From the NCBI GenBank assembly GCA_947626755.1, contig CANQTP010000006.1, forward strand, positions 1 to 64,000: a stretch of 64,000 bases of DNA, given 5' to 3'. A program made the translations under genes and the position numbers. A model generated the notes under the pieces. It worked only from the letters and a program-made list of their open reading frames with translations, was not told the DNA's origin and did no database searches. Position 1 is the first letter of the stretch. Each line of letters opens with the position of its first letter. Shown here piece after piece: positions 12,267 to 45,810 of the stretch. The stretch comes from an uncultured Clostridia bacterium. GTDB taxonomy: Bacteria > Bacillota > Clostridia > Oscillospirales > Ruminococcaceae.

Positions 12267-12512
12267 CTAAGGATTAATGTTAAGAATCTTGCTTATATCA
12301 CTGTCGGACATACCAAAAGCTTTCATTTTGGCAAGGATCTCGTTATCTCTTTCTGCTCTGCCTTTTTGAATAGCTTCTTCCAGCTCGGACGCTTTGTCAT
12401 GCATGGCTTTTTCACGCATACGGGCAAGCTCTTTTAATCTTTCGTTGTTATTCATGTTGTAAAGATCATCTATAGCTCTGTCTAATGCTGACATTTCGGC
12501 TGTTCTCAACAT
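12267..12512 (-). CDS. Candidate RpnS-like small protein (C-terminal Rpn ORF, 81 aa) with its own SD
   Basis: AAGGAGG-8 nt-ATG (SD at 12521-12527, ATG at 12512), in frame with the Rpn C-terminal fragment. Confidence 0.5.
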   Translation of the reverse strand: MLRTAEMSALDRAIDDLYNMNNNERLKELARMREKAMHDKASELEEAIQKGRAERDNEILAKMKAFGMSDSDISKILNINP

Positions 12513-12622
12513 CTCAAACTCCTCCTTCTTGGTGGATCTGATAAATTGTAACCACAAGTTTTTTCTGTCGTTCTTATCTATTCCATCTTTTACCTTTTTA
12601 AGTTCAAAAAAGTGTATCTGCA

Positions 12623-12823
12623 GCAGGCTGAGCCTGCACGCTTTCAGGCAAATTTTAGTGATTTTCAACTTAACATATACCGTGCATGATGTAAAGTTGG
12701 ATTTACAAAATGTTCCGCCTATATAGGCGGAAGTTTTTATGTAAATTCAGCTTTATTTAATGCACGTTATACTTAGGCGGGAAATCACAAAGTAAAGCCT
12801 GAAGGCGTCAAGGCTCAGTCTTG
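12623..12823. repeat. Complete inverted-arm MITE-like element inserted in the Rpn gene
   Basis: GCAGGCTGAGCCTGC at 12623-12637, outward-paired arms, central CCGCCTATATAGGCGG, CAAGGCTCAGTCTTG at 12809-12823. Confidence 0.88.
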
Positions 12824-13081
12824 TAGAATTTTTCATTGATACTTGTCGGCTCGATCTCGGGATTCTTTATGCGTATGTTATGAAGTTCACTTTCGGGAAT
12901 GTCAAGCATATCCGAAAGAAAAGCCTTTAAAATATCTTTGTTGTTTTCGTTACCAAAAAGCATCTTAAACACAATATCCAGTTTCGGAGATAACATTGTT
13001 TCGTCTTTTGCCACTTAAACCGCCTCTTTTCAATTATATTATAACACGCTCAACTTAAAATTGCAATAGAAACCTACTGCA

Positions 13082-43952: not shown

Positions 43953-44125
43953 AAGAAATGACCGTCCTTTTCTAAAATTTGCCTGAAATTTACCATAAAA
44001 AATTCAACGCATAAAGCCACATTATATTTTAGCACATTATTCTTAAATACGCAACTATTTTATGCGGATTTTGTGCAAAATACACATTTTAATTATATTT
44101 TGTTTGTAACTAAAATCTTTTATTA

Positions 44126-44340
44126 AGAGTTGAAAGTTAAGAGTTGAGAGCAGGCTGAGCCTTTCCGTAGAGTTGAGAGTTAAGAGTTGAGAGTTGAGAT
44201 ATTGCAGGGACGCTTATATCTCAACTCTCAACTCTTAACTCTCAAAACTAAAATGTAGATTGTACTTTACCTTGCCGCACATTATACTTAGGCAGAGGAT
44301 AGCAAAACTTTGCCTGTAGGGGTCAAGGCTCAGCCTTGCA
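44126..44340. repeat. Composite repeat downstream of the Rpn locus
   Basis: aagagttgaaagttaagagttgagagcaggctgagcc, tgagatattgcagggacgcttatatctcaactc, arm, caaggctcagccttg. Confidence 0.87.
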
Positions 44341-44590
44341 TATATTTTCTGATGATTTCTTCCGGCACGCCGTCTGCTGCCATTAGTGCAAGTAGGTCGG
44401 ATCTGCCTTTTGCAATGCCTTCTGCTCTACCTTCTGCTTTTCCCTTGGTGTAATTTTCTGCCATTAAAGTATTATAATCCCAGAGTGCCTTCTGACGGGC
44501 ATTATATTCCAAGCGTTTCTGTTCGTCCTGGCTTATAACTTCAAGCGTATCGACCGCTTCTCTGATGTATTCATTACTGCTTGCTGCCAT
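44330..44590 (-). CDS. Stand-alone duplicated Rpn C-terminal ORF (RpnS-like, 86 aa) with a divergent tail
   Basis: MAASSNEYIREAVDTLEVISQDEQKRLEYNARQKALWDYNTLMAENY identical to the upstream Rpn C-terminal segment; different end LLALMAADGVPEEIIRKYMQG; GAGG-8 nt-ATG. Confidence 0.6.
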   Translation of the reverse strand: MAASSNEYIREAVDTLEVISQDEQKRLEYNARQKALWDYNTLMAENYTKGKAEGRAEGIAKGRSDLLALMAADGVPEEIIRKYMQG

Positions 44591-44607
44591 ATCAAATTCC
44601 TCATTTA

Positions 44608-44898
44608 TCAAGAATTAATGCTGAGTATTTTATTTATGTCACTTTCCGATATACCGAAAACTTTCATTTTTGCAAGAATTTCTGCTCTGCCTTTAGATAT
44701 GCCCCTTGCTTCGCCTTCTGCTCTGCCTTCTGCTCTGCCTTCTGCCTTCCCTTTGATGTAATTTTCTGCCATTAAAGTATTATAATCCCAGAGTGCCTTC
44801 TGACGGGCATTATATTCCAAGCGCTTCTGTTCGTCCTGACTTATAACTTCAAGCGTATCGACCGCTTCTCTTATATATTCATTACTGCTTGCTGCCAT
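44608..44898 (-). CDS. Candidate intragenic RpnS-like small protein (96 aa, in frame)
   Basis: AAGGAGG (44907-44913) 8 nt upstream of in-frame ATG 44898 inside the Rpn gene. Confidence 0.5.
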   Translation of the reverse strand: MAASSNEYIREAVDTLEVISQDEQKRLEYNARQKALWDYNTLMAENYIKGKAEGRAEGRAEGEARGISKGRAEILAKMKVFGISESDINKILSINS

Positions 44899-45465
44899 AT
44901 CAAATTCCTCCTTCTTCTCTGCTTTCAAAAACTTTATCCAATCATACAGGACGGTGCCGTCCTCGGTTTTTGGAAGCTTAGGCAACTCTATCAAATGCCA
45001 TTCCATTATGTCTGTATAGCAAATATTTTCGCTGTCCTCGCGTATGTGATAGATCGTGTGGAAACGCTCTGTTTCTTTGACATATTTGAAGTCTAAAATG
45101 TTTATTCCAATGCATTTCTTGAAGTTTGAGTATATCTTGTCTATATTAGTCTGATCTACAAGCATTTTTGAGACATAGAACGCACTCCGTTCCGCCCAGG
45201 TTGCCATATAGGAAAGCTGGATCTCAATGTCGATCTCCGTGTCGTCGTTCATAGTAAGATAAACGTCCAGTATTCCCTGCTTCGAGTCCTCATGGTTTTT
45301 GGGAAGATTTGCATTTTTAAGAACAGTCTTCTTGATGTCGTCCACAGGGATATTCAGAACTGCACTTAAAAAGCCTTTCCTGACTTTATCATTATGCATT
45401 ATTTCCTTAAAAGCAAAATCTACTTTCGGCGACATCATGAAATATTCCTGATCTGGCACTTTCAA
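44608..45465 (-). CDS. Rpn-family recombination-promoting nuclease/putative transposase (PD-(D/E)XK)
   Basis: MMSPKVDFAFKEIM...KQGILDVYLTMNDDTEIDIEIQLSYMATWAERSAFYVSKML. Confidence 0.92.
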   Translation of the reverse strand: MKVPDQEYFMMSPKVDFAFKEIMHNDKVRKGFLSAVLNIPVDDIKKTVLKNANLPKNHEDSKQGILDVYLTMNDDTEIDIEIQLSYMATWAERSAFYVSKMLVDQTNIDKIYSNFKKCIGINILDFKYVKETERFHTIYHIREDSENICYTDIMEWHLIELPKLPKTEDGTVLYDWIKFLKAEKKEEFDMAASSNEYIREAVDTLEVISQDEQKRLEYNARQKALWDYNTLMAENYIKGKAEGRAEGRAEGEARGISKGRAEILAKMKVFGISESDINKILSINS

Positions 45466-45532
45466 ACACTCCTCTATACTTTCTTGTCAATTATATTATA
45501 TCACATTTTTTTTATGATTGCAATATAAAAAT

Positions 45533-45810
45533 AAGAGTTGAGAGTTGAAAGTTGAGAGTTGAGAGCAGGCTGAGCCTGCACGCTTTCAGGGTTTGCTTTG
45601 TGATTTTCAACCTAACGTATACCGTGCATGAAGCAAAGTGCAGTCTGCAAACAATGATCCCGCCTATACAGGCGGGAATTGCTGTTTGTAGATCGCGCTT
45701 TACTTTGCCGCACATTATATTTAGGCAAGAGATCACAAAACTTTGCCTGTAGGCGTGCAGACTCAGTCTGCCTCTCAACTCTATAATTACGCATTAAGAA
45801 TTACGCATTA
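45533..45810. repeat. Complete inverted-arm element (45565-45771) flanked by heptamer arrays
   Basis: GCAGGCTGAGCCTGC 45565-45579, CCCGCCTATACAGGCGGG centre, GCAGACTCAGTCTGC 45757-45771, then ATTACGC-type array. Confidence 0.88.

Follow-up and report, generated by a model that had tools for sequence, protein, structure and literature searches.

The window (the whole 64,000-nt stretch of DNA that was analysed) carries a full-length Rpn nuclease gene, rpnL, with an intragenic rpnS inside it and a small stand-alone rpnS immediately downstream on the same strand (Table 1). The family matches of the rpnL product, PF12784 (3.9e-45) and TIGR01784 (3.5e-39), span the nuclease domain, and the catalytic pattern is intact, with D65 and E79 invariant and Q81 at a column conserved in at least 90% of an alignment of 46 sequences; the PD-(D/E)XK residues of RpnA are D63, E82 and Q84 (PMC5350276). 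These features identify the product as a predicted PD-(D/E)XK nuclease of the Rpn family. The open reading frame given in the initial annotation (45465-44608, minus strand) stands, with a small change to its start: GTG 45459, with AGGAG 9 nt upstream and a protein of 283 residues, is preferred over TTG 45465. The locus had also been read as an Rpn defence locus, with which the family match agrees, whereas the neighbouring open reading frames are housekeeping-like in appearance, and an anti-phage role is assigned by family only. No plasmid relatives of the window Rpn region were found.

In the predicted full-length model (mean pLDDT 82.9), the N-terminal domain is built of mixed strands and is accompanied by one long helix (residues 210-267) containing a series of four-residue repeats; fewer repeats would make this helix shorter, as proposed for E. 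coli. A solved-structure relative of the full-length protein was also sought by fold comparison with Foldseek, which gave no significant match (the top match, the EcoT38I endonuclease, had E=0.076, below significance), and a PDB sequence search with the Rpn protein returned no significant relative.

Table 1. Features of the rpnL/rpnS locus and of the second Rpn locus in the window.
Feature	Position	Strand	Basis or remark
rpnL, full-length Rpn nuclease, 283 aa, GTG start	44608..45459	-	PF12784, TIGR01784, invariant alignment columns
Internal Shine-Dalgarno AAGGAGG of intragenic rpnS	44907..44913	-	sequence and homologue constraint
Intragenic rpnS, internal in-frame ATG 44898, 96 aa	44608..44898	-	SD-ATG kept in 57/60 homologues
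4-aa repeat segment (GRAE-type, 12-bp), intragenic copy, 25 aa	44683..44757	-	repeat reading
Tail type B, intragenic copy (EILAKMKVFGISESDINKILSINS)	44611..44682	-	tail comparison
Stand-alone rpnS, ATG 44590, 86 aa	44330..44590	-	17 nt past rpnL stop
GAGG Shine-Dalgarno, stand-alone copy (S-type leader AAATGAGGAATTTGAT)	44599..44602	-	sequence
4-aa repeat segment, stand-alone copy, 18 aa	44396..44449	-	7 aa shorter than that of the internal copy
Tail type A, stand-alone copy (LLALMAADGVPEEIIRKYMQG)	44333..44395	-	same tail DNA as rpnL on contigs C75, C161
Direct repeat, 201 nt, upstream copy	44713..44913	.	self-comparison
Direct repeat, 201 nt, downstream copy	44405..44605	.	94% identical to upstream copy
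RpnS part with intact internal start, second Rpn locus in window	12267..12512	-	locus 12267-13014

The intragenic rpnS is preceded by AAGGAGG at a spacing of 8 nt from its in-frame ATG, and the 96-residue product initially annotated from this start was confirmed in the sequence. Such a motif at Shine-Dalgarno (SD) spacing is rare, being found at 4 of the 1902 ATGs on both window strands. An alignment of homologues, proposed earlier as a check for a conserved internal SD-ATG, places Met at the internal-start column in 57 of 60 full-length proteins and bears the proposal out, as the SD is kept in 57 homologues with a strong synonymous bias. Codon -5 has G as its third base in 57/57 homologues, where codon use predicts 17.4, regardless of the amino acid encoded (AAG 44, GAG 5, ACG 5, AGG 3). 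At codon -4, Glu is written GAG in 55 of 56 cases, compared with a background of 33% (P=8e-26, a value that is optimistic given the kinship shared by the homologues; yet the SD is kept in proteins only ~50% identical). Because the spacing of AAGGAGG is rare and the SD is conserved with this synonymous bias, the internal SD-ATG is not attributed to chance, and the pattern of synonymous constraint is that expected of a ribosome-binding site held within coding sequence. Lachnospiraceae relatives have the same internal SD and one core bearing varied tails, and in the stretches read from them no stand-alone copies of the window type were noticed. RpnS sizes in the source genome range from 74 to 107 aa, with a conserved core.

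The stand-alone copy repeats this arrangement, with GAGG at the same 8-nt spacing from its ATG, and its start, its length of 86 residues and its tail are as first described. The duplication from which it was recognized is real but larger than the ~150 bp originally estimated, covering 201 nt, and on the 5' side of the start clear homology extends as far as the GAGG in the SD. Over the first 47 codons of the core the two copies are separated by 4 synonymous changes and no nonsynonymous one; beyond it they diverge, with repeats of 25 (internal) and 18 (stand-alone) residues and different tails. The shorter repeat segment and the other tail give sequence support to the altered specificity that the initial annotation had suggested for the duplicate. 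The predicted stand-alone protein consists of a long helix (residues 23-72) and a short tail helix, in a model with a pTM of only 0.34. Its tail is that of the C75 rpnL, with a different repeat segment, and no exact cognate for it was found among the other rpnL genes.

An intragenic RpnS with a stand-alone duplicate, as annotated at the outset, matches the published RpnL/RpnS systems, in which the E. coli Rpn nucleases RpnA-E have an RpnS made from an internal start (Zhong et al. 2023, PMC10327210). Because the same authors report stand-alone RpnS copies behind both rpnE and rpnC, find that YpaA is expressed and describe loss of the separate gene by fusion, the basic arrangement of rpnL and stand-alone rpnS is already known. 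Shared between the window and E. coli are an Rpn nuclease with an internal SD-ATG for its C-terminal part, a long helix past the internal start with four-residue repeats that vary in number, a variable tail, and stand-alone downstream copies (ypaA, rpnCS) with loss by fusion. The systems differ in family, the window Rpn belonging to PF12784 and RpnA to PF04754 (PMC5350276), and the source genome additionally has arrays with two spare copies and tail exchange between subfamilies. RpnS is longer here because about 48 residues separate the internal start from the repeats, compared with 8-20 in E. coli, a layout that we treat as a variant and not as a defining difference. The rpnE-ypaA pair resembles the window pair in that the spare copy starts at the internal SD and mismatches its neighbour in repeats and tail, and differs in that E. 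coli K-12 RpnE is annotated as inactive.

Spare RpnS copies recur. The source genome has 33 Rpn matches and at least seven Rpn genes of the window subfamily that are full or near-full length. Spare copies follow rpnL on contigs C146, C168, C14 (two) and C28 (two), the C73 rpnL has one that is cut by the contig end, and C14 has another after a more distant Rpn; the congener G019 has five such loci and the congener G015 about eight, two copies in G015 being frameshifted. Arrays reach two spare copies after one rpnL. Most copies begin at model position 188-194, which is the internal start, and their leader is usually ATGAGGAATT where internal copies have AAGGAGGAATT; ypaA of E. coli K-12 begins exactly at the position of the rpnE internal SD, 12 nt past the rpnE stop. 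Elsewhere, sequence such as TAAATGAGGAATTCG follows the rpnL stop with no RpnS behind it (L004, L008, L013 and the end of L014), an apparent remnant of lost spare copies. Compared with the nearest relative, spare-copy cores show 58 synonymous and 15 nonsynonymous codons (P=4e-24; neutral expectation 3.3 nonsynonymous per synonymous), counts in which part of the change falls on the branch of the relative. This ratio indicates that the cores are kept as protein by purifying selection, and gene conversion from rpnL copies may contribute to the low nonsynonymous divergence. At L069, on contig C10 of G015, the rpnL belongs to subfamily 1 and the stand-alone RpnS behind it to subfamily 2.

In E. coli, repeat number sets RpnL:RpnS recognition, and RpnCS with one repeat added no longer neutralises unless a matching repeat is placed in the toxin (PMC10327210). 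Given this effect of a single extra repeat, the repeats and tails of neighbouring genes were compared. None of 17 readable rpnL-headed pairs from three related genomes matched in both repeat length and tail, and the two pairs of equal length differed in tail or repeat sequence. Among complete E. coli genomes, repeat number was equal in 0 of 11 distinct two-unit rpnE alleles and the repeat segment in 0 of 6 rpnC alleles; both repeat number and tail of ypaA were unlike those of its neighbour in 11/11 rpnE-ypaA alleles read. Random pairing in rpnE would give about 7% equal repeat numbers, and neighbours' repeat lengths are weakly correlated in the MAG set (P=0.02). Because repeat numbers drift quickly, mismatch is also what random pairing yields, and selected avoidance of matching, which is indistinguishable from random pairing, was set aside. 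What the sequences indicate is that nothing keeps the spare copy matched to the neighbouring rpnL. The repeat-number rule comes from E. coli RpnC alone, whose RpnS has a different build; if it is valid beyond RpnC, the spare protein would not be its neighbour's antitoxin.

The tails themselves are distributed across the family. Several types occur in the source genome, and types A and B are found on both of two subfamilies with cores only 27-31% identical in DNA, compared by position; in G019, tail type C is likewise on both subfamilies. Exact shared tracts around the stop extend for 132 bp between C75 and C161 (77 bp of it 3' flank), 90 bp between the C168 spare copy and the C63 rpnL, 83 bp between C168 and a C28 spare copy, and 65 bp between the window spare copy and C161. 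In G104, from another genus, 66 nt are shared at 85% between contigs of 90 and 179 kb in a pair with nuclease parts 32% identical, the 99th percentile of other pairs being 59%; this likeness points to an older, diverged exchange, which assembly error would not produce. The rpnE-ypaA alleles read have an L tail of one type and an S tail of another except in fusions. In the fused (single-unit) E. coli alleles rpnE ends in the ypaA (S) tail, and the VCSW5 fused allele combines the S tail with the long L-type repeats typical of rpnE, though such alleles may have arisen as simple deletions that bring no benefit. The comparisons thus characterize Rpn tails as modular and exchanged between subfamilies.

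The window also holds a second Rpn locus, at 12267-13014 on the minus strand, in which a palindromic repeat element of about 190 bp stands in place of the catalytic middle and the RpnS part with its SD-ATG is intact. The same replacement is seen at C4 and C25, which are of the other subfamily and share the site, and in the congener G019. One element motif has five exact copies genome-wide, and three of them fall in Rpn genes.

We put forward, at about even confidence, that the stand-alone RpnS is an expressed, mostly non-cognate, spare C-terminal cassette for re-specifying Rpn genes. The observed constraint on the internal SD, the recurrence of spare copies, their precise start and their mismatch with neighbours are its foundation. 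The stand-alone cistron would have arisen by a duplication beginning at the internal ribosome-binding site, and its translation probably depends on coupling or reinitiation just past the rpnL stop. Its core would be kept as protein while its recognition part (the repeat helix and tail) is unlike that of the neighbour, so that it most probably does not serve as the neighbour's working antitoxin. Recombination in the shared core or in the 12-bp repeats would move the spare repeats and tail into rpnL, and because the toxin and the intragenic antitoxin are read from the same DNA, their specificities would change together, presumably to the benefit of the cell. The core selection, inter-subfamily tail exchange and fused E. 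coli alleles described above are further observations in favour of this reading. A wider form of the proposal, which we advance only tentatively, is that the stand-alone rpnS genes and nuclease-dead remnants together form a genome-wide cassette library that re-specifies toxin and antitoxin in one step, its members entering rpnL genes, across subfamilies, through recombination within the common core and the 12-bp repeats.

Several observations would also fit a rather unlikely alternative, that the stand-alone RpnS is an immunity protein against another RpnL, in the same cell or incoming, with the same repeat number and tail: the genome holds the Rpn genes of the window subfamily counted above, the first C14 spare copy and the RpnS part of the C73 rpnL share 318 bp of identical sequence, spare cores are conserved, and nuclease-dead remnants recur with intact RpnS. 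An exact match to another L was, however, found for 1 of the 17 spare copies compared in three genomes, and the window copy departs in its repeat segment from the C75 rpnL whose tail it shares. Its operon position, coupling-like spacing and near-identical core could instead mark it as a second antitoxin that raises the dose for its own neighbour, and the YpaA protein is produced in E. coli (PMC10327210), but repeat number or tail is unlike the neighbour's in every pair in which both were read, and one additional repeat abolishes neutralisation in RpnC; we consider this improbable.

We give similarly little credence to the reading that the copy is a functionless product of slippage or unequal exchange at the 12-bp repeats. 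The region is rich in repeats, apparent scars of loss are seen at the four loci listed above and two G015 copies are frameshifted; against this, in most spare copies the frame is open and the SD and start are preserved, the majority begin at the position of the internal SD, and nonsynonymous changes in the core fall far below the neutral expectation. The genome assembly is fragmented (198 contigs, with several Rpn copies at contig ends), so some contig-end copies may be mis-joined, but an assembly artefact is a very improbable source of the stand-alone gene, since the window copy sits inside a 92-kb contig, the separate assemblies G015 and G019 show the same layout with different sequences, and the layout is present in complete E. 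coli genomes.

The cassette proposal bears on the reason for the rapid variation of Rpn C-termini, and on how the cell can survive a change in a toxin and in the antitoxin encoded in frame within it. That the tail of the spare RpnS belongs to a pool swapped among Rpn genes suggests a way for the defence to change its specificity. If spare RpnS copies are donors, new tails would come from next door and the change in toxin and antitoxin would be automatically matched; "second copy" RpnS proteins, among them YpaA of E. coli, would then be predicted not to neutralise their neighbours. Displaced C-terminal toxin tips are comparable exchangeable modules. Recognition domains also move between restriction-modification genes (cited in PMC5350276), and both share with the Rpn genes a conserved N-terminal enzyme, an exchangeable recognition part and adjacent spare modules, the difference being that one Rpn module encodes part of the toxin as well as the antitoxin, so that a swap changes both. 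The main texts of PMC10327210 and PMC5350276 contain no account of the consistent mismatch between neighbours, of two-copy arrays and nuclease-dead remnants with intact RpnS, of a longer RpnS with its start far ahead of the repeats, or of inter-subfamily tail exchange and selection on the spare core, some of which may be reported elsewhere.

A phage-borne free RpnS acting as an anti-Rpn protein was also sought and rejected, as tblastn of the stand-alone protein against phages recovered a full Rpn homologue and nothing else, and viral contigs, when scanned, yielded no such protein. Full-length Rpn homologues with 28-29% identity are carried by phages PQ006094.1 and MT835532.1. The window Rpn locus is flanked at 44112-44262 and 45520-45564 by heptamer repeats (GAGTTGA/GAGTTAA) in inverted orientation, and a 19-mer of these repeats, which often adjoins Rpn genes, was counted 65 times in the genome and its reversed control 7 times.
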